A stretch of DNA of 21,382 nucleotides, taken from IMG/VR virus record IMGVR_UViG_3300009436_002330, positions 1-21,382 of that record. One strand, given 5' to 3'. The first letter of the stretch is position 1, and each line of letters starts with the position of its first letter. Below the pieces are notes generated by a model. The model was not told the DNA's origin, ran no database searches, and was given only the letters and a program-made list of their open reading frames with translations. Positions 4,090 to 20,315 of the stretch are shown in pieces. The stretch is from a virus. The position numbers and the translations under genes are program-made.

Positions 4090-6105
4090 CTAAATAAGGG
4101 GGGTATTTTTTAGAATTTCTAAATTACCCTCTTTTATTTTTAATATAATACCCATCTCTTTCGTGATATCACCCGTTAAGATATTATCACTAATGAAATC
4201 TTCACACAGATTCTGAATAATTCGCTTTATAGGTCTTGCACCATACTCTTCCTCAGAATTACGTTTTATTATCTCATCAACGACTGTTTTATGAAAAGTA
4301 ATTTCATAGTTACTTTCCGTAAGTCTTTCACTTAAAATATTTAATTCAATCTGAACAATTTTCTTTAGTGATTTATTATCTAATTTGTCAAAAACAATTA
4401 CATCATCAATTCTATTTAGGAATTCAGGGGTAAATTGATTCTTTAATGACTTTCTAATAATTGAATCTTTAATCTTTTCGTTATTACTATCATCACTAAA
4501 TCCAATTCCACCACCAAATTCAGAAACTTTCTTAGCACCTATATTAGATGTCATGATTATTAATGTGTTCGTGAAATTAATTTTTCTACCAAACGAATCT
4601 GTTAGGTGACCTTCATCCAATATCTGTAGTAATAGGTTAAAGACATCCTTATGACCTTTTTCTATCTCATCAAATAAGACAACAGAAAATGGGTTGTTCT
4701 TAATCTTCTCAGTAAGTTGTCCACCTTCATCAAATCCAACATAACCAGGAGGGGACCCAATAAGTTTAGAAACGTTGTGTTTCTCCATAAACTCACTCAT
4801 ATCCACCCTAACAATTTTATCAGGATCACCAAATAAGGTTTTAGCTAATGTTTTTGCTAAGTGTGTTTTACCAACACCTGTTGATCCTAAAAACATAAAT
4901 GACCCAATTGGTTTGTTAGAACCTCTAACACCAACACGGTTCCGTCTAATTGATTTGGAGATGATCTCAACCGCATTATCCTGACCTATAACATTCTTAG
5001 ATATTGTCTTTTCTAATGATAGAAGGTTCTTAGTCTCTTTTGTGTCAAGTTTAGTGATTGGGACACCCGTCATCTCGGTTATGATATTATATACATCATC
5101 AATAATAACGGGTTTCTTATTTAACTTTTGTTCAACACTCCACTTTTTCTTTTCTGACTCTAATTTCTTAATGACCTTTTTCTCATTATCTCTTAGTTCC
5201 GCCGCTTTCTCATAATCTTGATTCCTAACCATTTCTTGTTTATCCAACTTAATTAGATCTGATTGGTTTCTCAGTTTTTCGATAATAGCGGGAATTTTCA
5301 CATTAATTTTCTTTTCAGAACCTAATTCATCAAGAATATCTATTGCCTTATCGGGGAACTGTTTATCGGTAATGTATCTTTTAGATAAACTAACGATTGT
5401 TTCAATGACATTATCTTGGTATTCGACCATGTGATAATCCTCATAAGAATCTTTTAGGTTTTTTAGAATATCTATTGTTTCATCTGTAGTTGGTTCAGTT
5501 AGGACGATCTTTTGAAATCGTCTAACCAACGCACTATCTTTTTCAATATTCTTCTTGTATTCGTCGAATGTGGTTGCTCCGATACATTGTATTTCTCCCC
5601 TCGCTAATGCAGGTTTAAGGATATTTGCGGCGTCCATTGATCCTGATGCGTTTCCCGCACCGACCATTGTATGAATTTCATCTATGAATACAATTACATT
5701 TGGTGCATCTTGTAATTCATTTAATATTGCCTTAATTCTTTCCTCGAACTGACCTCGGTACTTAGTTCCCGCAACTAATGATGTTAAATCAAGGGACATT
5801 ATACGTTTATCTATTAGATTAGTCGGACATGATCCATCATTAATCATAAGTGCGAGTTTTTCTACTAACGCAGATTTACCAACCCCCGCATCTCCAACAA
5901 TAATGGTATTATTCTTCTTTTTCCTTGAGAGAATTTGAGCAATACGTCTAACTTCTTTATCACGACCGATTATTGGATCGATTAAACCTTGTTCAGCAAG
6001 TTTAATTAAATCTCTTGAAAAATTATCTAAAATTGGGGTTGAACTCCCTTTCTTTCCTTTACGTTGTTGTTGAGGTGCTCCCTCTTCAAAAAATTCTACA
6101 GACAT
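4090..6105 (-). CDS. ClpC/ClpA-like AAA+ unfoldase lacking the N domain
   Basis: A 671-residue Hsp100 protein that unfolds proteins by ATP-driven threading. AAA-1 has Walker A GDAGVGKS (71-78), Walker B VIVFIDE (137-143), GATT (177-180) and Arg finger region LVRRFQ (193-198). A short middle region (about 280-325) contains a UVR-like segment NQDYEKAAELRDNEKK, as in ClpC, rather than ClpB's long M domain. AAA-2 has Walker A GSTGVGKT (407-414), pore loop GYVGF (454-458), Walker B VVLFDE (475-480) and sensor region EFLNRIDD. GGGIGF (531-536) sits where ClpC/ClpA carry the VGF/IGL loop that docks on ClpP. The roughly 150-residue N domain that binds substrates and adaptors is replaced by about 25 polar residues. 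No clpP is present here, so it would use host ClpP. Divergent from Hsp20. Confidence 0.93.
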   Translation of the reverse strand: MSVEFFEEGAPQQQRKGKKGSSTPILDNFSRDLIKLAEQGLIDPIIGRDKEVRRIAQILSRKKKNNTIIVGDAGVGKSALVEKLALMINDGSCPTNLIDKRIMSLDLTSLVAGTKYRGQFEERIKAILNELQDAPNVIVFIDEIHTMVGAGNASGSMDAANILKPALARGEIQCIGATTFDEYKKNIEKDSALVRRFQKIVLTEPTTDETIDILKNLKDSYEDYHMVEYQDNVIETIVSLSKRYITDKQFPDKAIDILDELGSEKKINVKIPAIIEKLRNQSDLIKLDKQEMVRNQDYEKAAELRDNEKKVIKKLESEKKKWSVEQKLNKKPVIIDDVYNIITEMTGVPITKLDTKETKNLLSLEKTISKNVIGQDNAVEIISKSIRRNRVGVRGSNKPIGSFMFLGSTGVGKTHLAKTLAKTLFGDPDKIVRVDMSEFMEKHNVSKLIGSPPGYVGFDEGGQLTEKIKNNPFSVVLFDEIEKGHKDVFNLLLQILDEGHLTDSFGRKINFTNTLIIMTSNIGAKKVSEFGGGIGFSDDSNNEKIKDSIIRKSLKNQFTPEFLNRIDDVIVFDKLDNKSLKKIVQIELNILSERLTESNYEITFHKTVVDEIIKRNSEEEYGARPIKRIIQNLCEDFISDNILTGDITKEMGIILKIKEGNLEILKNTPLI

Positions 6106-6278: not shown

Positions 6279-6650
6279 ATGTTAGTATTTAAAAATGACC
6301 CATTTTTTAAAATGGTAGATAACTTCTTCGACATTGCTGAAGAAAATGAAACACATGGTCAGGTTATGTGGAATCAAACTTATGATGACAATCAACATTT
6401 AGTTGAATTTATTGTACCTGGTTTGAGTAAATCAGATATATCAATAGTTGTGGAGGAAAACCAACTAAAAATTTCACATGAAAAGACGGAAGAGACCTCA
6501 AAGTACGTTAATTCATTTGGTAGGGTATTTGATTTACCCGAAAATGTAGACGATAAGAAGATAACCGCTAAGGTTGAAGATGGTGTTTTACGGGTGTTAC
6601 TACCAAAAACCAAGAAGAAAAAGTCACAAAGAACAATTTCAGTTAATTAA
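6279..6650 (+). CDS. Small heat-shock protein, Hsp20/alpha-crystallin family
   Basis: A 123-residue ATP-independent holdase that binds unfolding proteins. The alpha-crystallin domain spans about residues 30-115: HLVEFIVPGLSKSDISIVV (beta strands 3-4), NQLKISHEK, FGRVFDLPENVDDKKITAKV and the hallmark DGVLRVLLPK. The C-terminal tail is basic (KTKKKKSQRTISVN) with an I-S-V tail near the usual I-X-I/V position. The ATG at 6279 is chosen because an upstream frame would run into the Clp gene and adds sequence unlike the family. Hsp20 genes are common in T4-like phages, where they are thought to protect phage proteins during infection. It is divergent from the Clp unfoldase, a natural functional pair. 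A hairpin follows. Confidence 0.93.
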   Translation: MLVFKNDPFFKMVDNFFDIAEENETHGQVMWNQTYDDNQHLVEFIVPGLSKSDISIVVEENQLKISHEKTEETSKYVNSFGRVFDLPENVDDKKITAKVEDGVLRVLLPKTKKKKSQRTISVN

Positions 6651-6758: not shown

Positions 6759-7001
6759 ATGGCAATACTATCAGAAAAAATCAACGGTAAAGAGATTTTA
6801 ATTGAAATCGATTCATCTAATTTAAAGTCTGCATCTTACAATACGGAAGGTGGAACATTAGTCGTCACGTTTAAAAGTGGTGGAAGTTATGAGTATTATA
6901 AAGTCCCGTGGGAAGCGTTTACCAAATTAAGACTCGCAGAATCACAGGGTAGGTTTTTCAATCTTAGTATTGCAAAGACTTATGAGTTTAAGAAATTATA
7001 A
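6759..7001 (+). CDS. KTSC-domain protein, 80 aa
   Basis: The whole protein is one KTSC domain: SSNLKSASYNTEGGTLVVTF, then GGSYEYYKVP, then the terminal AESQGRFFNLSIAKTYEF. It matches the family pattern of a Ser/Tyr-rich strand, a G-x-x-Y-x-Y-x-x-VP motif and a closing G-x-(Y/F)-FN-x-x-I-x-x-x-Y segment. KTSC domains are found alone or fused to lysyl-tRNA synthetase and phage proteins; their biochemical role is not settled. Its stop codon overlaps the next ATG (TAATG), so translation of the two is probably coupled. Confidence 0.85.
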   Translation: MAILSEKINGKEILIEIDSSNLKSASYNTEGGTLVVTFKSGGSYEYYKVPWEAFTKLRLAESQGRFFNLSIAKTYEFKKL

Positions 7002-7768
7002 TGAAAAACATTCAATTAGTTGATGAGTTAATCGAAGAGATTGGCAACAATCAAGATATTGTTAAATCATTTGAAATAAGAGATGCACTGTCCACCGACA
7101 TATTCGGAGAAAAGGATGGTGAATTTTTTATGCTTGATGAGATCAAAAAAAGATTAATGGTCGTTACTGAAGAATTCATGAATTTTATTGACATTGACTT
7201 CTTTGTACATGACATTATATTAACTGGTTCGTTGGCTAACTACAATTGGTCCAAGTTCTCAGACGTTGATTTACACATTCTAATTGATTATAACGAAACA
7301 GAGTACAACCTCGACTTATTAAAGAAATTCTTTGATAGTAAGAGAAGTTTGTGGAATAAACAACATGAGATATTAATAAAAGGGTTCGACTGTGAGATAT
7401 ATGTACAGGATGTTAATGAAAAACATTTAGCGTCGGGTATCTATTCTGTCTTAAATGATGAATGGGTGGTTACCCCTGAACGTACAATCCAATCAATTGA
7501 TAAAGAATTGATTATTAAAAAGTCGGAGGTATTTGAGGATTTAATCGATGGTATTAAATCATCTTTTGAGAAAGGAGATGACGTTTCTGAAGATATATCT
7601 AAGGTTAAAAAGAAATTAAAATCATTTAGACAGTGTGGTTTGGACAAAGGTGGTGAATACTCATATGAGAATTTGGCCTTCAAACTTTTAAGGAGAAATG
7701 GTTATATAGGGGAGTTGTTGGGAATCCAAACTAAACTCACCGATAAGAAATTATCCATAGAACAATAG
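7001..7768 (+). CDS. Nucleotidyltransferase-like protein, 255 aa
   Basis: Residues about 70-140 form a DNA polymerase beta-type nucleotidyltransferase core. LTGSLANYNW holds the Gly-Ser signature (G76-S77), KFSDVDLHILID carries the D-X-D metal pair (D88, D90), and CEIYVQD near 131-137 supplies the likely third acid. Such proteins transfer a nucleotide or nucleotide-derived group to RNA, protein or a small molecule. The N-terminal 65 and C-terminal 110 residues are charged and helical with no recognised domain. All three expected acidic positions appear present, so it may be active. It overlaps the KTSC gene by one base. The substrate is unknown; toxin-like (MNT/AbiEii) or packaging-associated roles cannot be distinguished. 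Confidence 0.8.
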   Translation: MKNIQLVDELIEEIGNNQDIVKSFEIRDALSTDIFGEKDGEFFMLDEIKKRLMVVTEEFMNFIDIDFFVHDIILTGSLANYNWSKFSDVDLHILIDYNETEYNLDLLKKFFDSKRSLWNKQHEILIKGFDCEIYVQDVNEKHLASGIYSVLNDEWVVTPERTIQSIDKELIIKKSEVFEDLIDGIKSSFEKGDDVSEDISKVKKKLKSFRQCGLDKGGEYSYENLAFKLLRRNGYIGELLGIQTKLTDKKLSIEQ

Positions 7769-7838: not shown

Positions 7839-8897
7839 ATGTCAAAACTTAGACCATTGGGTAGTGAAAAATTACCTGTAGATGAAAAATTAAAAAGGAT
7901 TATGGAAATTGCCAACTATGGTAGAACCCCTAAGTCCACAATTAACGAAAACAAATCACACAAAAAAGTGGAATTCCTTATGGAATCTACCAACGGTATG
8001 TATGGTATTGTTAAAGAAGGATCTTCGTACTATGTACAAAAAGGTATTAACGAATCATCCCTTGATTATATCGGTGGTATGTTCATGAAAGATAAAAATA
8101 GGTTTTCGTCTTATTCAACAGCATTAAAACGATTAGAACTTATAAGTGGTCAAGAAACACTTAATGAAGCAAAAAAATACGTATTAAAATCTAAAGGTGG
8201 TGAATCATCAGCACCTGTTGAAGATATTCCCGCTGAACCAGTTGCTGCAGAACCAGAGATGGATGCGCCAATTGATGATGCACCTGTTGAAGGACCCGAA
8301 ATTGATTCTGTAGATGGTGACGAACCAATTGAAGATTTACCAACTGACGATTTAGAAGATGAAGGTAAAGATGGTAAGAAATCTGATTACATGGAAGAGG
8401 TTCAAAAGTTCTCAGGGAAATTAGGTCAAGCATTAAGAGATGTTAAAGACAACATGGAAAGTGATGACATCAAGTATGTTATTAATATGGTTCTTTCTGC
8501 TGTCGATTTAGAAGCATTGGACGAAGATGATAGAGAAGATATTGCTGAAAAGTTTGAATCGAAAGATGATGAAGACTTTGTTGATAATTTTGACGAAGAT
8601 GGTGAACCAATTGATGGTGAGTCAGATGATGAATTTGAAGATGAAGAAATTCCTTCAGATGAAGATACTGAACTTGATGAAGTTATGGATAAACTTGAAA
8701 GTTTTATCGATACCGACACAATTGTTGATGAAGATGAGATTGAAGAAGGTGGTGACATAGACATTAGTCAATTTAATGATCTTGGAATGGCAGAAACTGT
8801 TTCTGATGTAGATGAGGACGTTGAACTTGATTTGGATGAACTTAAAGGTGAAATTAACAAACATGTTGATGCAACTTTGAGTAAATACTTTAAGTAG
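7839..8897 (+). CDS. Acidic protein, 352 aa, probable head/prohead component
   Basis: I do not recognise a family. Residues 1-115 are mixed and probably folded (SSYYVQKGINESSLDYIGGM, then YSTALKRLELISG). Residues about 125-180 are a Pro/Asp/Glu-rich linker. About 180-235 form a helical segment (YMEEVQKFSGKLGQALRDV). The C-terminal third is dominated by Asp and Glu, ending in the helix DLDELKGEINKHVDATLSKYFK. LNE-A at residues 108-111 resembles the (I/L)-X-E cleavage site of the T4-like prohead protease. Highly acidic, protease-site-bearing proteins near the portal are often prohead core or internal head proteins, which is my tentative suggestion. It heads a tightly packed run of four genes before the terminase. 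Confidence 0.85.
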   Translation: MSKLRPLGSEKLPVDEKLKRIMEIANYGRTPKSTINENKSHKKVEFLMESTNGMYGIVKEGSSYYVQKGINESSLDYIGGMFMKDKNRFSSYSTALKRLELISGQETLNEAKKYVLKSKGGESSAPVEDIPAEPVAAEPEMDAPIDDAPVEGPEIDSVDGDEPIEDLPTDDLEDEGKDGKKSDYMEEVQKFSGKLGQALRDVKDNMESDDIKYVINMVLSAVDLEALDEDDREDIAEKFESKDDEDFVDNFDEDGEPIDGESDDEFEDEEIPSDEDTELDEVMDKLESFIDTDTIVDEDEIEEGGDIDISQFNDLGMAETVSDVDEDVELDLDELKGEINKHVDATLSKYFK

Positions 8898-9879: not shown

Positions 9880-11195
9880 TTAGTAAAAAATCACTTTTAG
9901 AAACAATTAAAAACATTAAGGAAATGCCAGTAGATTATGGTGACAACCCTGAAAGAATAGAACCAGGTCTTGAGGATAAACTTTCAACACAAGACACACC
10001 TTATAAAGATAACCCTGCGTTTCCACAAGATACCCCTGATGGGTTACCATCTAATTGGGAAGAGTTATTGGCGTCTAAGAGATTTAAAGACGTTGTGGAG
10101 AAGGTAAAACGATATACGGGAACCGAAGGTAATGTTACCGATCAAGGTACATTCATGTCTCTTGTAGGTACTATGCAACAAATGTTAAATAGTGTTTTAC
10201 AGTTCGAATCAGAACACAAAGAATACTTAGAAAATTTAGCGGTAGAATTAGTCAAGAAAGAAATGGCACTACCTGAAGGATCATTACAATTTGATGCTAA
10301 GTTAGTTGGTATGGGTGAAATTTCACCTGAAGGTTTCCAACAACAAGGTGAAGAACCAAGTGAAGAAGAAGTACAACAACAATTTGGTGTTGATGCTGAA
10401 GAAGCTGAAGATGATGTGGAAGATTTTATCGACGCATTTGAACAGTTTGATCAAGAGACGGCTAAAAGAAGATTTATAAATGCATTAATTCAAGGGTCAT
10501 CTAAAAAAGGACATTACATGTTTGAATTAGTTGCAACAGAATTAGAAGAAAAAAACCCTAACATCCTTACTCAGTACGGTATATTAATGTCAGTAAATGA
10601 TCTTATGTATTGGATATTACCTGATGGTGTTGTACAACAAGGTATGGAAGGTGGAAGTTTTGCGGGTAAAGAAGAGGTTGATACTGAAACAGATCCTCCA
10701 ACAGTTAGAGCAACTGCAGTATTCTTTCCAGCATTAATTCACGAACTCATTAAAGGTGTTATGGAAGTTATGGGAACTAAAGGTTTACCTGACGATCCTC
10801 GTGCCGCTGAAATGGTTATGAATTCAACAGATACATTACCATCAGAGATATGGGATTTAAGATTAGGTCCTGTTATTTGGGAAAAATTTAGAGAGTCTTA
10901 TCCTGAAAAAATTATGGGTGAGGAATTGAAACACATTCAAAATTACTTATTCTCAAGATTCTCATCTTTAGATAATGATGAATTTTTTAAAGTTTCAAGA
11001 GAAATACTGAAAGGAAGTACCTTAGGTAAAGAAATTATAAGTAATATGGTTGATCAGATTATTCAGGATTTACAGAGTGAAGATTATGAAGAGGACCAAT
11101 ATAATAGAGAATATGGAGACGATGATGATGATGATGGACTCGGAGGATTCTTAGGGTCATTAGGGATTACATTTTCTCCTGAAGACGATAATTAA
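9876..11195 (+). CDS. Putative structural protein upstream of terminase, 439 aa
   Basis: An acidic, mostly helical protein that I cannot assign to a characterised family. Residues 1-60 are extended and Pro-rich. A helical block (about 60-135) contains TFMSLVGTMQQMLNSVLQFE. A Gln/Glu-rich acidic linker lies at about 150-190. A probable folded core (195-400) contains RRFINALIQGSSKKGHYMFE and ILMSVNDLMYWILPDG. The tail has six consecutive Asp (YGDDDDDDGLGG) before a final segment ending in EDDN. Its position directly before the large terminase, with a terminator after it, fits a late virion or assembly protein. It is much longer than T4 gp16 and shows no small-terminase motif, so that identity is not claimed. 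The start overlaps the preceding stop (ATGA). Confidence 0.85.
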   Translation: MISKKSLLETIKNIKEMPVDYGDNPERIEPGLEDKLSTQDTPYKDNPAFPQDTPDGLPSNWEELLASKRFKDVVEKVKRYTGTEGNVTDQGTFMSLVGTMQQMLNSVLQFESEHKEYLENLAVELVKKEMALPEGSLQFDAKLVGMGEISPEGFQQQGEEPSEEEVQQQFGVDAEEAEDDVEDFIDAFEQFDQETAKRRFINALIQGSSKKGHYMFELVATELEEKNPNILTQYGILMSVNDLMYWILPDGVVQQGMEGGSFAGKEEVDTETDPPTVRATAVFFPALIHELIKGVMEVMGTKGLPDDPRAAEMVMNSTDTLPSEIWDLRLGPVIWEKFRESYPEKIMGEELKHIQNYLFSRFSSLDNDEFFKVSREILKGSTLGKEIISNMVDQIIQDLQSEDYEEDQYNREYGDDDDDDGLGGFLGSLGITFSPEDDN

Positions 11196-11212: not shown

Positions 11213-11238
11213 AAAGTGGTCAATAGACCACTTTTTTT
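11213..11238 (+). terminator. Intrinsic terminator before the terminase gene
   Basis: AAAGTGGTC-AATA-GACCACTTT is a perfect 9-bp hairpin followed by four more T. It ends the pre-terminase unit and overlaps an in-frame upstream GTG, which argues that the terminase starts later, at 11252. Confidence 0.85.
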
Positions 11239-11248
11239 GTATTTATTG
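11239..11248 (+). promoter_or_regulatory. TATTTATT motif before terminase
   Basis: GTATTTATTG lies between the terminator and the terminase ATG, only 3 nt from the ATG. It matches the recurring late motif, but if it is a -10 element the transcript would be nearly leaderless. The role is uncertain. Confidence 0.3.
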
Positions 11249-11251
11249 GAT

Positions 11252-13033
11252 ATGGATAAACAGAAACTCATACAGTTAAAAGAATATGCTAAGATCATGA
11301 AGGACACTCCTTATGCTCTTAAAACATATTTACAGACATTTGACAATACTCAAAAGAGATATGTACCATTAGAGTTATTCCCCGATCAAATTGAACTTAT
11401 ACATGATTACGATAATTATAACGAAAACATTACACGTAAGTACAGACAAGCGGGTGTATCTACAGTAACCGCGGCTTGGTTATCTAAAAGAATCCAAACC
11501 GCAAAACCAACTAACCCCGAGAGAATTCTAATTATTGCCAACAAACGTGATACTGCGATTGAGATGGCTAATAAGGTTCGTGGTTTTTTAGATCAATGGC
11601 CCGAATGGATGAATGTTGGATTTTCACCTGATAAAAACTCAGAGAGTCGTTTTAGAATGAATAACGGATGTGAAGTTAAAGCGGTTGCAACCTCAGCGGA
11701 TGCACTTCGTGGATACACACCTACCGTGTTGATATTTGATGAAGCCGCGTATATTGATGCTGGTGAAGATTTTTGGGGTGCGTGTATGGCATCGTTGTCT
11801 ACGGGTGGTAAGGTTATACTTATTTCAACACCTAACGGTTATGATCCAATATATTATGGAGTATACGACCAAGCACTAAGAAAAATGAATGATTTTAAAA
11901 TTACCGATTTAAGGTGGTTTAAAGATCCTCGTTATGCTGGTGACCTTAAATGGTTAAAGGTGGATGATATCATACATTACATGTTAAATAGAGAGCAATA
12001 TGTTGATGAGGATATCACACTTAATGAAGGTTGGGATCGATACGAAGAATTACATGAATTAGGTTACAAACCCTATTCTCATTGGTTTGAGAATATGGCA
12101 AAGAAATTTAAGTACGATAAGAGAAAAATTGCACAGGAATTAGAATGTGATTTCTTAGGTTCGGGTGATGGTGTTATATCAAATACTATACAAGAGAAGA
12201 TTAGGAAAACAATGATTACCGAACCAATTGAAAAATATATGCAAGGAACATTGTGGGTTTGGAAAGAACCTGTAATGGGACATCGTTATATTATGGGTGT
12301 TGACGTTTCTCGTGGTGATAGTGCTGATGCATCTTCAATATGTATTATTGATTTTGATGAGGGTGAACAAGTATTAGAATATGTTGGTATGATACCACCT
12401 GATGATTTAGCGTCTATTGTTTATAAATGGGGAACACTATATAATGCATTCGTAGCAACTGATATAACAGGTGGTATGGGTATTGCAACATCTCGTAAAT
12501 TACAGGAGTTAGGTTACAAAGACCAATACGTTGATGGTGTTAACTCACAAAACAAGTGGGAATACAATAAAAAGGCACAAGAAAAGATACCTGGTATCAG
12601 TTTTAATAATAAGAGAACTCAAATTGTTGCAAGTTTTGAAGAAAACTTAAGACATGGTTTTAAAGTAAAATCATCTCGTCTATTAAATGAATTGAATACA
12701 TTTGTTTATGTTAATGGTAGACCTGACCACATGAAAGGTGCACATGACGATGCAATTATGGCAATGTCAATTGCAATGTATGTTGGAGATATTTGTTTTA
12801 CACAGTTAAAACGTAACGACACCGCAAACAAAGCAATGTTAGATTCGTGGGTATTTAGTGAAAGAACTTATGATACTCAAAAGTCGTTTTACTCCTACGG
12901 TACTGCGTTTGATGCGATTGGTTCTATGAGTACTGACCCGTCACCATACCCGATAGGACAGAAAGATGCGAGTAAGGAACAGTACATGGAACATAATTGG
13001 TTATTTGGTAAATCAACATATAGATCAAGATAA
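11252..13033 (+). CDS. 17: Terminase large subunit (gp17-like)
   Basis: A 593-residue DNA-packaging motor with ATPase and headful nuclease domains. The N-terminal ATPase carries a variant Walker A, KYRQAGVSTV (63-72), where the usual GK(S/T) lysine is missing and the conserved RQ is kept, as in several terminases. Walker B is VLIFDEAA (159-166, D163 and E164), followed by the coupling motif ISTPNGY (191-197). The C-terminal RNase H-like nuclease has acids at D351 (MGVDVSRGD), D404 (ATDITGG) and D499/D500 (HDDAIMAMS). The ATG at 11252 is preferred over an upstream GTG that lies inside the terminator hairpin. In T4, genes 18 and 19 follow gene 17; here the portal follows directly. Confidence 0.97.
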   Translation: MDKQKLIQLKEYAKIMKDTPYALKTYLQTFDNTQKRYVPLELFPDQIELIHDYDNYNENITRKYRQAGVSTVTAAWLSKRIQTAKPTNPERILIIANKRDTAIEMANKVRGFLDQWPEWMNVGFSPDKNSESRFRMNNGCEVKAVATSADALRGYTPTVLIFDEAAYIDAGEDFWGACMASLSTGGKVILISTPNGYDPIYYGVYDQALRKMNDFKITDLRWFKDPRYAGDLKWLKVDDIIHYMLNREQYVDEDITLNEGWDRYEELHELGYKPYSHWFENMAKKFKYDKRKIAQELECDFLGSGDGVISNTIQEKIRKTMITEPIEKYMQGTLWVWKEPVMGHRYIMGVDVSRGDSADASSICIIDFDEGEQVLEYVGMIPPDDLASIVYKWGTLYNAFVATDITGGMGIATSRKLQELGYKDQYVDGVNSQNKWEYNKKAQEKIPGISFNNKRTQIVASFEENLRHGFKVKSSRLLNELNTFVYVNGRPDHMKGAHDDAIMAMSIAMYVGDICFTQLKRNDTANKAMLDSWVFSERTYDTQKSFYSYGTAFDAIGSMSTDPSPYPIGQKDASKEQYMEHNWLFGKSTYRSR

Positions 13034-13085: not shown

Positions 13086-14924
13086 ATGGCAAACAAAAAC
13101 TTAACAGTTTATCAAAGGTTAACAAAGGTGTTCGGATTTCAAAATGATGTCCCTAATCCACCGCAATATCGTTTCGACAAAGATACTCTGTTAAAAACAG
13201 ACAGTAAAGAGGACTACGAAAGAGAGTTACTCCAAGCAAAACAATCGACATACGTTGCCGACAAGTGGGCCAAGATGGACCAATCACTATATAACCAATC
13301 GGTTTATTACGAACCAAATAGATTGGCCGCATATTATGATTACGAATCAATGGAGTTCACACCTGAGATATCTGCATCGTTAGATATCTATTCTGAAGAG
13401 TCAACAACCCTTTCAGAAAAAGGAGAAATTCTAACAATATACTCCGAATCAAAAAGAGTAAGTAACATCTTAGAAGACTTATTTAAAAACGTACTCGACA
13501 TTAACACAAACTTACAGATGTGGTGTAGAGGAGTTGCCAAGTACGGTGACAACTTTGTATATCTAAAGATTGACCCGTCAAAAGGAATAGTTGGATGTCA
13601 ACAGTTACCTAACATTGAAATTGAAAGACATGAAGGTGCTGCGTCTCACGTACACAAAGCCGAGACACCTGTAAACATGAAAACACGTGAATTACGTTTT
13701 GCATGGAAAAATAAGGATATGGAATTCCAAGCATGGGAAGTTGCACATTTCAGATTATTAGGTGATGATAGGAAGTTACCATATGGTACGTCAATGTTGG
13801 ATAAGGTAAGACGTATATGGAAACAACTACTTCTTGCAGAAGATGCAATGTTAATCTATAGAACTTCAAGAGCACCCGAAAGAAGAGTGTTTAAAGTGTT
13901 CGTGGGTAACATGGACGATAAGGATATTGAAGCATATGTACAACGTGTTGCAAACAAATTCAAAAGAGATCAAGTAGTTGATCCTGCGAATGGACAAGTT
14001 GATATGAGATACAACCAAATGGCGGTAGATCAAGATTATTTTATACCTGTAAGGGATCCATCACAAACAAACCCAATTGAAACATTACCAGGAGCACAGA
14101 ACTTAGGTGAGATTGCGGATATTGAGTACATTCAAAAGAAATTATTAGCGGCACTAAGAATACCAAAGGCGTTCTTAGGGTTTGAGGAAATTGTTGGTGA
14201 TGGTAAAACATTAGCATTAATGGACATACGTTTTGCAAGGACGATTAATAGAATACAGAAGTCACTTGTTCAAGAGTTAAATAAAATTGCATTAGTACAT
14301 TTATATCTTTTAGGTTTAGAAGATGAACTTACTAATTTTACATTATCATTAACTAATCCATCCGCACAATCTGATTTATTAAGGATTGAACAATGGAAAG
14401 AGAAGATTACGTTATACAAAGATGCTACTTCCGATCAATCTCAGATTGGTATCCAACCAGTGTCACACACATGGGGTAAGAAGAATATTCTTGGTATGAG
14501 TGATAATGACGTTGTACTTGATTTACAACAACAAAGACTTGAAAGAGCACTTGGTGCTGAATTAGGTATCACACAAAACATTATCAAGAGAACTGGTGTG
14601 TTTGATGAGGTAGATAAGAAGTACGGTATCCCTGAAAAGGATAGACAAGCAATGGACGCTTCAATGACACCTGAGACTGGTGGTGGAGATGATATGGGTG
14701 GAGCTCCTCCTATGGGTGGTGCAGACGCACCTCCAATGGATGATGCACCATTAAGTGAAGACAAGAAAAAAAGTAAATCTAAATTAACGGAAAGTAAGAA
14801 ATCTAAAATATTGGGTATGTTAGGTGATGAAACAAAAGATTTTGATGATCTTTTTGATCTCGATAAGGCTCAACGCAATATTTATGAAGTAGAGAATAAA
14901 CTCAAAGACATATTAAAAGAATAA
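13086..14924 (+). CDS. 20: Portal vertex protein (gp20-like)
   Basis: A 612-residue protein that forms the dodecameric portal through which DNA is packaged and on which the prohead initiates. The T4-type portal signature is seen in YESMEFTPEISASLDIYSEE (about 81-100), the wing/stem region with WCRGVAKYGDNFVYLKID, the segment AEDAMLIYRTSRAPERRVFK and the C-terminal clip/crown region ending in a helical segment. A low-complexity Gly/Pro/Asp insert (about 541-568) precedes a Lys-rich tail with LTE-S, a possible prohead-protease site. It starts 52 nt after terminase behind an A/T-rich leader with no Shine-Dalgarno sequence. A TATTTATTA sits 2 nt before the ATG; it may be coincidental. Confidence 0.96.
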   Translation: MANKNLTVYQRLTKVFGFQNDVPNPPQYRFDKDTLLKTDSKEDYERELLQAKQSTYVADKWAKMDQSLYNQSVYYEPNRLAAYYDYESMEFTPEISASLDIYSEESTTLSEKGEILTIYSESKRVSNILEDLFKNVLDINTNLQMWCRGVAKYGDNFVYLKIDPSKGIVGCQQLPNIEIERHEGAASHVHKAETPVNMKTRELRFAWKNKDMEFQAWEVAHFRLLGDDRKLPYGTSMLDKVRRIWKQLLLAEDAMLIYRTSRAPERRVFKVFVGNMDDKDIEAYVQRVANKFKRDQVVDPANGQVDMRYNQMAVDQDYFIPVRDPSQTNPIETLPGAQNLGEIADIEYIQKKLLAALRIPKAFLGFEEIVGDGKTLALMDIRFARTINRIQKSLVQELNKIALVHLYLLGLEDELTNFTLSLTNPSAQSDLLRIEQWKEKITLYKDATSDQSQIGIQPVSHTWGKKNILGMSDNDVVLDLQQQRLERALGAELGITQNIIKRTGVFDEVDKKYGIPEKDRQAMDASMTPETGGGDDMGGAPPMGGADAPPMDDAPLSEDKKKSKSKLTESKKSKILGMLGDETKDFDDLFDLDKAQRNIYEVENKLKDILKE

Positions 14925-16484: not shown

Positions 16485-17168
16485 ATGAAAGTATTAGGTC
16501 CAAAAGAAACAGGTACAGGAATCCTCATCGAATACGATGCGGGTTTTGTGTCTCCTGATGAAAATAAAACAGTAATAACAGAAATGAAGGGTGTTGACTT
16601 CTCAGAAGACATTATTCTTTATGCTGTTCTACAAAAATACGACACTCCAAATAAAAACGGTAGAATATATCCTGAGAAACTTCTCAAACGAGAAATGGAT
16701 AAATATAAGACCGTTATCGAGAAAGGGAGTGCATTAAATGAGTTAAATCACCCATCATCTTCACTTATAGATTTAGATAGAGTATCACACACGATCACCG
16801 AGACTTGGTGGGACGGTAAGATACTTATGGGAAAAATTAAACTACTTCTTTCACCTGGATGGAAAAAATCAGGTATTGTAAGTACTAAGGGTGACCAAGC
16901 CGCAATGTTACTTATGAATGGAGTGACATTGGGAATATCTTCAAGAGGTGTTGGATCATTAAAATCAGAAAAAGGACAGAATATTGTACAGGAGGATTTC
17001 GAATTAGTGTGTTTTGACTTAGTGTCATCACCATCGACACCTGGTGCATATGTTTTTAACGATCCTTCAGATAGAGAAAAATATGCTGAGAGTATAGAGG
17101 AAAAACCAATAGTAGATGATAGAATGTCGAGGTTAATGGGTAAGATGGATACGTTTTTAAATAAATAA
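16485..17168 (+). CDS. 21: Prohead core protein protease (gp21-like)
   Basis: A 227-residue serine protease of the T4 gp21 (peptidase U9/S78-related) family, which cleaves the scaffold and capsid proteins during prohead maturation. The core contains YDTPNKNGRIYP (52-63), then ELNHPSS with the catalytic His (H89), then the nucleophile segment GISSRGVGS with Ser152/153, and CFDLVSSPSTPGAY with Asp178 and the conserved PS-TPGA closing motif. The length matches the family. The gene follows a TATTTATA motif and precedes the scaffold, as in T4. The capsid protein downstream has an N-terminal LINE site fitting this protease. Confidence 0.95.
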   Translation: MKVLGPKETGTGILIEYDAGFVSPDENKTVITEMKGVDFSEDIILYAVLQKYDTPNKNGRIYPEKLLKREMDKYKTVIEKGSALNELNHPSSSLIDLDRVSHTITETWWDGKILMGKIKLLLSPGWKKSGIVSTKGDQAAMLLMNGVTLGISSRGVGSLKSEKGQNIVQEDFELVCFDLVSSPSTPGAYVFNDPSDREKYAESIEEKPIVDDRMSRLMGKMDTFLNK

Positions 17169-17251: not shown

Positions 17252-18544
17252 ATGAGTAAAAAATCCATTTTAGAACAAGCATTGCTTCAAGTACAAGATC
17301 TTGAAGAGGCAGTTAAAGCGAACGCAAAAGGTATACTTGCTTCAACCATGAAGGAAGAACTAAACGAATTGCTAAAAGAATCAATGGAAGAAGAAGAGTC
17401 AGATGAAAGTCTGAGTCTTGATAAAGAAGACGAACAAGGTATACCTGAAGTAGCTGCAGAACAATTTGACAGTGAAGATGAGGAAAACGATGACGAAACT
17501 TCGATAAACGACGAGCCAGCGGACGACGAAGATCCTGATTTAGAGGATGAAGTTGTAGATGACGAATTAGACACTGAGGATGAATTAGATTCTGAAGTGG
17601 ATGATGTGTTTGATGCAATTGATTCTGAAGAAGAAGATGATCAAGACGTTCTTGATATGACCGACGCATCTGACGAAGAAGTTCTTAAGGTATTCAAATC
17701 AATGAAACCTGAGGATGGAATAGTAGTTAAGAGAGACGGTGATAACGTTGAGCTTGAAGATGGTGACGACGAATACATTATCAAATTAGACGATGAAGTA
17801 TCTGACGAAGTTGCTGATGAAGATCTTGCTGAAGAAGAAGATTGTACCGAAGGGTGTGATGATTCTGAAATCAAAGAAGATGTTTCTGAAGAAGACGACG
17901 TTGTATATGAAATTGACTTAGATGAAAGTGATGACGAAGTTGCTGAAGAAGAAGTTTCTGAAGAAGTTTCTGAAGAAAGCCTTGATGAAGAAGAAGTTTC
18001 TGAAGAGGATGAATTAGAAGTTCCTGAGGAAGAAACTCAAGAAGGAGAAGTTGACGAAGCGGCAAGAACAAAATCTAACGTACACGGAGACAAAGGTGGA
18101 GCTAACAGAGCGGGTATTAAGTCTAAGACAAAATACAAGGCTGGTTCAACCATCAACGAAGAAGTTAAGACTTTGAGAAAACAAAACGGCGAATATAAAA
18201 AGGCGTTAGTTCTATTCAAAGACAAACTTAATGAGGTCGCTGTGTTTAATGCTAATTTAGCATACTCAACAAGATTGTTCACTGAACATTCAACTACTCG
18301 TAATGAGAAATTAAATATTTTGAAGAGATTCGATACTGTTGGAACTTTAACAGAATCTAAATCAACCTATAAAACAATTAAGGGTGAGTTAGAGTCGTCT
18401 AAGAACGTAACAGAATCAGTGGTAAACAAGATCACTTCAAATAATCCGACAACGTCTTCATCTCAAGATGTACTTTCAGAGTCAAAAGCGTATGAAAGTC
18501 CACAATTCTCGAGAATGAAAGAATTAATGTCAAAAATAAAATAA
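17252..18544 (+). CDS. 22: Prohead scaffold (core) protein, gp22-like
   Basis: A 430-residue protein placed between the prohead protease and the capsid protein, the T4 gp22 position. Residues 1-45 are helical. About 46-270 are dominated by Asp and Glu, with repeated VSEE units. The C-terminal third (about 290-430) is helical and basic-to-neutral (LRKQNGEYKKALVLFKDKLN, then FNANLAYSTRLFTEH), as in gp22 C-terminal cores. LSE-S and INE-E resemble prohead-protease sites. The acidic region is longer than in T4 gp22 (269 aa in total), which fits the family's variable length. A 64-bp part (17996-18059) duplicates a piece of the 192-aa gene. It probably forms the removable internal scaffold. Confidence 0.9.
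   Translation: MSKKSILEQALLQVQDLEEAVKANAKGILASTMKEELNELLKESMEEEESDESLSLDKEDEQGIPEVAAEQFDSEDEENDDETSINDEPADDEDPDLEDEVVDDELDTEDELDSEVDDVFDAIDSEEEDDQDVLDMTDASDEEVLKVFKSMKPEDGIVVKRDGDNVELEDGDDEYIIKLDDEVSDEVADEDLAEEEDCTEGCDDSEIKEDVSEEDDVVYEIDLDESDDEVAEEEVSEEVSEESLDEEEVSEEDELEVPEEETQEGEVDEAARTKSNVHGDKGGANRAGIKSKTKYKAGSTINEEVKTLRKQNGEYKKALVLFKDKLNEVAVFNANLAYSTRLFTEHSTTRNEKLNILKRFDTVGTLTESKSTYKTIKGELESSKNVTESVVNKITSNNPTTSSSQDVLSESKAYESPQFSRMKELMSKIK
17996..18059 (+). repeat. 64-bp duplicated segment, copy B
   Basis: It matches 9487-9550 at 62 of 64 positions in the same frame. It lies at the end of the acidic VSEE-rich region of the scaffold, so the scaffold is the more likely source and the 192-aa gene the recipient; this direction is inferred. 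Confidence 0.95.
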
Positions 18545-18572: not shown

Positions 18573-20315
18573 ATGGGAGCATTATTAGAATCAGGTATGG
18601 TTGGTAACATTGGGTTAAAACACCTAAGAGTTATCAAGGAAGATACCATCAAAAAATGGGATGACTTAGGATTTTTAGAAAGTCTTGAAGGTCACCAAAA
18701 AGATAACATCGCTCAGTTATATGAAAACCAAGCGTCTTATTTAATAAACGAAGCTGCTGTATCAGATGCATCAGGTTCATTCGAAACAGTTGTTTTTCCA
18801 ATTATTCGTAGAGTATTCTCTAAGTTATTGGCTAACGATATCGTTTCTGTACAAGCTATGAACTTACCAATTGGTAAATTGTTCTACTTTGTACCTAACA
18901 TCTCTGACAGACAGAGTGCTGCACATGACGGTGCTGGTTTTGAAGCTGGAGCTCACAGAGCACCATTCAGATCACCAGGACAAACTGTTAACGGAGCTGA
19001 TCAAGGAAGAAATCTTTATGATAGATTCTACGAAGAAGGTGACGGAGCTGAAGAAGGTCTATTTGACTACTCTAAAGGTAAAGTTGTTGCTGGTGTTGCT
19101 AACTGTTTAGGTGGTGTAACATTTGCTGACGGAGTTGCAACAACTGCTGATGAAGTAATTGCGGCAAACGCAGTTGTATCTAACGTAGTAATCGCTGTTG
19201 GTGGATTTTCAAACGCAGGAGCTGGTAAATTAGCGGGACCTACAGGAAACGTTATGGATACTGAAGAATTTTTAGCTTCTTTAGAAGTTTCTTTTGATGG
19301 TAAATCAAAAGGAATCAACATTGTAACTCAGAAATACGGAAGTGGTATTGTTGATTACGGTAAGAAATCAGCTGGAGCAACAGGTCTATTTAATGACATT
19401 TGTGATGAGAATGGTATCATTTTCATTCAAGTTGATTTAGAAACTTACGGATCAACAGGATTTGTATCTTATGATGACGCCGCTAACGGTGCTGATGGAG
19501 TTGACAAAGCTGAGTTCACTGTATCATACAGAACTTACGAATCATTAGAATTCGAAGACGAAATCGGAGAAGTATCTTTCGATTTAGAGTCAGTTACTGT
19601 ATCTGTAACGGAGAGAAAATTAAGAGCTAGCTGGTCTCCAGAATTAGCACAAGATGTATCTGCTTTCCATAATATCGACGCTGAGGCTGAGTTAACAGCA
19701 TTGTTATCTGAGCAAATTGCAGCTGAGGTTGATAGAGAGATCTTAAGAGACTTAAGAAAAGGAGCAGCTTGGAACCTTAAATGGGATTACAATGAGTGGA
19801 AATATGGTGGAAACGGAAACGCAACACTACAAGGATACACTCAAAAGGATTGGAACCAAACGTTAATTACTAAAATTAACCAATTATCGGCTCAAATCCA
19901 TAAAACAACACTTAGAGGTGGTGCTAACTGGATCGTAGTTTCTTCAGAAGTTTCTGCAGTATTCGATGATTTAGAGTACTTCCACGTATCTAACGCAGGT
20001 GCTGAACAAGATCAATACAATATGGGTATTGAAAAAGTTGGTACTTTAGCTGGACGTTACCAAGTGTTTAGAGATCCTTATTTCCCAGCTGGGAAAATCT
20101 TAGTAGGACATAAAGGAAAATCGTTATTAGATGCTGGATATATCTACGCACCTTACGTACCTTTACAATTAACACCTACAATGTATAACCCGTTCAACTT
20201 TACTCCGATAAAGGGTATCATGACGAGATATGCTAAGAAGATGGTTAATAACCGTTACTTTGGTGTAATCAACGTAGCTGGTTTACAAACTTTCAGTTTG
20301 GATACTTTAAGATAA
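18573..20315 (+). CDS. 23: Major capsid protein (gp23-like)
   Basis: A 580-residue T4-type (HK97-fold) capsid protein. FPIIRRVFSKLLANDIVSVQ and PIGKLFYFVP mark the N-arm and start of the fold; SVTVSVTERKLRASWSPELAQD, DREILRDLRKGA and TPTMYNPFNFTPIKGIMTRY are classic gp23 segments. LINE-AAVSD at residues 57-64 fits prohead-protease cleavage after Glu60 (T4 cleaves after residue 65), giving a mature chain near 520 residues. It is longer than T4 gp23 (521); the extra residues appear mainly in a Gly/Ala/Val-rich insertion at about 170-230. It follows the scaffold by 28 nt and is closed by a strong terminator. It shares codon style with the rest of the cluster. Confidence 0.98.
   Translation: MGALLESGMVGNIGLKHLRVIKEDTIKKWDDLGFLESLEGHQKDNIAQLYENQASYLINEAAVSDASGSFETVVFPIIRRVFSKLLANDIVSVQAMNLPIGKLFYFVPNISDRQSAAHDGAGFEAGAHRAPFRSPGQTVNGADQGRNLYDRFYEEGDGAEEGLFDYSKGKVVAGVANCLGGVTFADGVATTADEVIAANAVVSNVVIAVGGFSNAGAGKLAGPTGNVMDTEEFLASLEVSFDGKSKGINIVTQKYGSGIVDYGKKSAGATGLFNDICDENGIIFIQVDLETYGSTGFVSYDDAANGADGVDKAEFTVSYRTYESLEFEDEIGEVSFDLESVTVSVTERKLRASWSPELAQDVSAFHNIDAEAELTALLSEQIAAEVDREILRDLRKGAAWNLKWDYNEWKYGGNGNATLQGYTQKDWNQTLITKINQLSAQIHKTTLRGGANWIVVSSEVSAVFDDLEYFHVSNAGAEQDQYNMGIEKVGTLAGRYQVFRDPYFPAGKILVGHKGKSLLDAGYIYAPYVPLQLTPTMYNPFNFTPIKGIMTRYAKKMVNNRYFGVINVAGLQTFSLDTLR

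Follow-up and report, generated by a model that had tools for sequence, protein, structure and literature searches.

The window, by which we mean the whole stretch of DNA that was analysed, is a 21.4-kb IMG/VR fragment of a T4-like myovirus. It carries terminase, portal, prohead protease and major capsid protein genes, and a clpC-like gene lies on the strand opposite to these head genes (Table 1). Between clpC and the head-gene cluster an Hsp20 gene adjoins clpC in divergent orientation, an arrangement found in 57 of 80 viral loci, and most relatives keep the order hsp20-KTSC-nucleotidyltransferase-like-terminase-portal. The nucleotidyltransferase-like protein (window 7001-7768; PHROG 36119, weak PF01909) is encoded near clpC in nearly all relatives. 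Three clustered tRNA genes (Met, Arg, Leu) occupy positions 1935-2180 of the minus strand. The head-gene cluster also encodes two very acidic low-complexity proteins (17252-18544 and 7839-8897), one of which directly precedes the capsid gene, the position expected of a scaffold core. No ClpP gene was found in the 21-kb window.

Table 1. Coordinates in the window of the clpC-like gene, its segments and the neighbouring genes
Feature	Position	Strand
clpC-like gene, 671 aa, ATG start, natural ΔN ClpC	4090..6105	-
D2 AAA+ core, residues 398-568; Walker A GSTGVGKT, Walker B VVLFDEIEK, pore loop GYVG	4402..4914	-
ClpP-docking loop region, residues 520-538; IGF at nt 4498-4506	4492..4548	-
ClpC-type M-domain coiled coil, residues 273-328, UVR motif	5122..5289	-
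N-terminal tail replacing the N domain, residues 1-22 (MSVEFFEEGAPQQQRKGKKGSS)	6040..6105	-
Hsp20/alpha-crystallin gene, divergent from clpC; start codon inferred	6279..6650	+
Terminase	11216-13033	
Portal	13086-14924	
T4-gp21-like prohead protease	16485-17168	
Major capsid protein	18573-20315	

A ClpC without an N domain

Pfam matches on the 671-residue open reading frame comprised AAA (68-202), AAA_lid_9 (207-306), UVR (287-310), AAA_2 (398-568) and ClpB_D2-small (575-650). The Walker A and B pairs of both AAA+ modules, the pore loops, the arginine fingers and sensor 2 were intact and conserved in the alignment, in agreement with an earlier note on this DNA that described a ClpC-like protein with intact Walker motifs in both modules. 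The best match among solved structures was S. aureus ClpC from its residue 152, i.e. from the linker that follows the N domain, and the match to the best PHROG (4871) did not begin until position 161 of its 764-position profile. An AF2 model had a mean pLDDT of 79, and its top Foldseek matches were ClpC-ClpP and MecA/ClpC/ClpP structures. The protein shares 52-54% identity with Bacteroidota ClpC and groups in the tree with ClpC, not with ClpA or ClpB. The alignment also ruled out identity as ClpB, since neither the long M-domain of ClpB nor its missing docking loop was matched, and as ClpA, which has no M-domain. Although ClpB gave the top NCBIfam score, every match was below the curated cut-off and no assignment was made; PADLOC matches to defence-system AAA ATPases were taken as generic AAA+ similarity. 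A ClpE-type zinc finger was not found in the N-terminal tail, which contains no cysteines.

The M-domain is of the short ClpC type. Its span between anchors is 77 residues, as compared to 78 in ClpC, 139 in ClpB and 21 in ClpA. Tyr298 is found at the position of Phe436 in S. aureus ClpC, a position occupied by an aromatic residue in all 94 viral sequences, and the Arg/Asp pair at the M-domain tip (R443/D444 in S. aureus) is conserved.

For the docking loop, viral relatives were aligned with 30 Bacteroidota ClpC, other ClpC, E. coli ClpA and several ClpB sequences. The IGF tripeptide (residues 534-536) shares its column with VGF or IGF in Bacteroidota ClpC, VGF in Firmicutes ClpC and IGL in E. 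coli ClpA, whereas E. coli ClpB and the other ClpB proteins have a deletion there. The comparison with ClpA, ClpC and ClpB that the earlier note had proposed as a check thus places IGF in the docking loop, and the statement that ClpB-type proteins lack this loop was found to be correct. The motif is [VIML]GF in 94/94 viral relatives (VGF 82, IGF 8, MGF 3, LGF 1) and [VIM]GF in 30/30 Bacteroidota ClpC, so its presence is not due to chance. In the AF2 model residues 532-538 form a disordered loop between two D2 helices. The same element in S. aureus ClpC, AGF 671-673, docks in the H-site of ClpP, and its mutation abolishes binding (PMC12521514).

The absence of the adaptor-binding N domain, also claimed in the earlier note, was confirmed. 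No Pfam match to Clp_N was obtained in the open reading frame or in 17 contigs of relatives, and numerous stops close the reading frame ahead of the ATG. The N domain was therefore not lost from view by choice of a wrong start codon, and a split N-domain gene was ruled out on the same evidence. All 94 viral relatives examined have this architecture. Bacteroidota ClpC, the nearest cellular kin of the viral proteins, retain the N domain, with 182-247 residues aligned where the phage tail stands, and among the matches listed for 198 Bacteroidota genomes every full-strength ClpC has an open frame of at least 832 aa. The dN/dS of the phage ClpC is about 0.02-0.08, which indicates strong purifying selection and hence a maintained architecture rather than decay.

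Counted from Met to LDNF, the viral tails measure 25 or 26 residues (94 sequences). They start with M-[SAP]-[VI]-[DE]-[FY]; positions 1-9 are well conserved in 44 distinct viral tails and are followed by a variable linker. Residues 1-19 of the phage ClpC are predicted to be disordered in the AF2 model. Since the N domain of ClpC is the site for adaptors, pArg and toxic peptides (PMC12583610), the phage protein, judged from its sequence, is a ClpC that has lost the site for adaptors, pArg-marked clients and toxic peptides together with part of the resting-state lock. Published work places binding of these ligands on the N domain, and it is thus plausible that the phage ClpC ignores host adaptors.

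ClpP of the related phages

A PF00574 search of the relatives' ClpC contigs detected ClpP on all six contigs of at least 170 kb and on none of the 11 shorter ones. Both phage ClpP and N-less ClpC were present on 13 contigs, including 7/7 of at least 240 kb, the latter having been selected by either gene. On some ClpP contigs of 200-233 kb ClpC is absent, possibly because these contigs are incomplete. In the phage genomes clpC and clpP are widely separated. Neither a second Clp ATPase nor a phage ClpS adaptor was found on the 13 two-gene contigs; ClpC is their only AAA_2 protein and therefore the one Clp ATPase identified on them with which the phage ClpP could pair.

A contig with a 99%-identical ClpC (L004, among the closest relatives of the window) was from the same sample as ClpP contig L188. 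The latter shares synteny in the clpP region with L183, which belongs to a 176-kb contig that also carries N-less ClpC. No single contig links the 99%-like ClpC with ClpP, and we infer that clpP is present in the genome of the window's own virus. On L188 (clpP at 10001-10675) and L183, clpP is preceded by a gene for an SbcC/SMC-like ATPase and followed by conserved genes including those of a DUF6576 protein and a sigma-70-family factor.

The phage ClpP belongs to PF00574 (E 9e-56), and the Ser-His-Asp triad is intact in all 86 sequences collected (L083-L088 and L183-L262). The docking pocket is altered. Tyr62 (E. coli mature numbering; Tyr63 in S. aureus) is replaced by His in 86/86 phage ClpP and is Tyr in 30/30 Bacteroidota ClpP, and Tyr60 (E. 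coli numbering) is Thr in all phage sequences. Thr60/His62 also occurs in ClpP of huge phage LR745206; Tyr62 is kept in ClpP of LR756502, LR756504 and two Lak phages. Lak phages L352 and L354 (MK250020, MK250016) possess ClpP, and no ClpC-like ATPase was found in them, with weak AAA matches in one. The conserved tyrosine is an H-pocket residue controlling the N-terminal gate of ClpP, and changing it to Ala opens the pore (PMC8182300). In the phage enzyme the pocket change could weaken rather than tune docking. An AF2 model of phage ClpP (pLDDT 36) was discarded.

Ancestry and related phage systems

The phage ClpC proteins group in a single clade (SH-aLRT 100) that neighbours Bacteroidota ClpC, with a less resolved position in a wider tree, and the phage ClpP proteins form one clade (support 100) nested within Bacteroidota ClpP. 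This fits an old acquisition of both genes from Bacteroidota-like hosts, a reading that calls for caution as both phage branches are long. The virus that carries the N-less ClpC is a large virus of Bacteroidota-type bacteria.

N-less ClpC-like proteins with a GF loop are also encoded in four huge-phage records (LR756502, LR745206, LR756504, LR756508), three of which have ClpP. These four proteins are on separate branches of the ClpC tree, where N-domain loss would need four changes. Since one common phage origin stays compatible in the AU test (p 0.4 and 0.25), we do not claim independent losses in several huge phages. ClpA-like proteins of Salicola phage SCTP-2, Sinorhizobium phage Phosso and LR756501 have a full-length N-terminal extension. 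Records labelled 'phage' of Listeria, Staphylococcus, Enterococcus and fecal origin were excluded as phage evidence because many resemble bacterial chromosome fragments; the ClpC/ClpB/ClpE-like genes in OR84xxxx and MT83xxxx (Listeria/Staphylococcus/Enterococcus phage, 'Bacteriophage sp.') look like bacterial contamination.

The two AAA+ modules, the short UVR M-domain and the PhiGF loop are common to the phage protein and bacterial ClpC of Bacteroidota and Firmicutes, such as S. aureus and B. subtilis; in the phage protein a conserved 9-residue N-terminal peptide stands in place of the N domain. The engineered ΔN ClpC of S. aureus (PMC12583610) is truncated at the same point, within the linker that precedes D1, and likewise keeps the M-domain aromatic. 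Unlike that construct, the phage form is natural, conserved across many viruses and accompanied by its own ClpP.

Moraphages (PMC12619734), whose hosts are Bacteroidota, are likewise large, aquatic and T4-like; a 'ClpA' VOG is near-core in them and some have Hsp20, and the part of their account used here describes neither N-domain loss nor ClpP. Lys-tRNA ligase, near-core in moraphages, is absent from 13/13 contigs in our set, and moraphage membership is not claimed. Small phage proteins that redirect host Clp proteases are known. SPO1 Gp53 (PMC6873191) likewise represents phage control of ClpCP proteolysis; it is adaptor-like and acts on host ClpC, whereas the phage of the window supplies the unfoldase itself. 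In jumbo-phage surveys single clp genes appear, with ClpP and ClpA mentioned separately, and we found no description of a phage pair of N-less ClpC and ClpP, or of phage N-domain loss, in our searches of open-access papers.

Role of the phage ClpC and ClpP

The properties of S. aureus ΔN ClpC allow predictions for the phage enzyme. Removal of the N domain destabilised the resting state, raised ATPase activity with ClpP and allowed binding to ClpP without MecA (PMC12583610). The truncated protein formed ClpL-like ring dimers and stacked into rods via M-domain contacts, and there was no degradation unless Phe436 was changed; the ΔN F436A variant degraded GFP-ssrA well (PMC12583610). In combination with the conserved Tyr298 and Arg/Asp pair of the phage ClpC, this behaviour predicts adaptor-free docking, with restraint by the M-domain still possible. 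Since the aromatic residue is kept, full de-repression is not assured, and proteolysis by the phage ClpC may need a further trigger.

We consider it likely that the product of the clpC-like gene is the unfoldase of an adaptor-blind ClpCP protease borne by the phage; the virus thus probably comes with a complete protease of its own that is beyond the reach of host control proteins. The ClpC hexamer would need no host adaptor for docking, and its GF loops would dock mainly on the phage ClpP, the product of a second gene far off in the genome, with its triad intact and its pocket changed (Tyr62 to His, Tyr60 to Thr). Substrates would enter directly by the D1 pore and be threaded into the phage ClpP. 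The M-domain contacts could still restrain the protease, and N-domain ligands would not be sensed. The neighbouring Hsp20 could hold substrates, which is a guess. A more far-reaching version, which we regard as possible but doubtful, is a private, unlocked viral ClpCP from which both locks have been removed, namely the N domain that maintains the ClpC resting state and the gate tyrosine of ClpP. Such an enzyme would be orthogonal to the adaptors and possibly also to the Clp ATPases of the host, and would serve to remodel the host proteome or to eliminate defence proteins.

The earlier note had instead suggested hijacking of host ClpP, i.e. a phage unfoldase that docks on the host peptidase and redirects host proteolysis while bypassing host adaptors. 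The GF loop is identical in type to that of Bacteroidota ClpC, host ClpP was present in 61/61 Bacteroidota genomes searched, and the window itself is without ClpP, all of which would suit this explanation. However, the long contigs of relatives all carry a phage ClpP with an intact triad, so that hijacking is not needed, and the remodelling of its docking pocket at a conserved tyrosine points to a phage-phage pair. Hijacking is therefore no longer the leading idea and appears unlikely as the main function, although the phage ClpC may dock on host ClpP in addition to its own partner.

The divergent Hsp20 gene by the head-gene cluster and the ring dimers of ΔN ClpC would be consistent with a stand-alone, ClpP-independent role as chaperone or disaggregase, in which ClpC and Hsp20 together act on proteins of the phage or the host, like ClpL or ClpB with small heat-shock proteins. 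The docking tripeptide would then be free to decay, yet it is kept in all 94 viral relatives, and ClpP is co-encoded; we rate this explanation slightly below hijacking. It is very improbable that the phage ClpP acts alone, as a head-maturation protease or open-gate peptidase to which ClpC is unrelated. Its best PHROG is a head maturation protease family, and the pore opening seen when the gate tyrosine is changed to Ala (PMC8182300) would agree with such a role, but the window already has a prohead protease of the T4-gp21 type and the tree places the phage ClpP inside true Bacteroidota ClpP.

What distinguishes these large phages is that their naturally N-less ClpC is accompanied by a phage ClpP with an altered pocket. 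If the adaptor-blind ClpCP reading is correct, evolution has truncated ClpC just where biochemists truncated the S. aureus protein, and the conserved pair would be a ready-made test of the role of the N domain as well as an adaptor-free degradation machine. The invariant Tyr-to-His replacement in the ClpP pocket raises the question whether the phage pair is orthogonal to that of the host.
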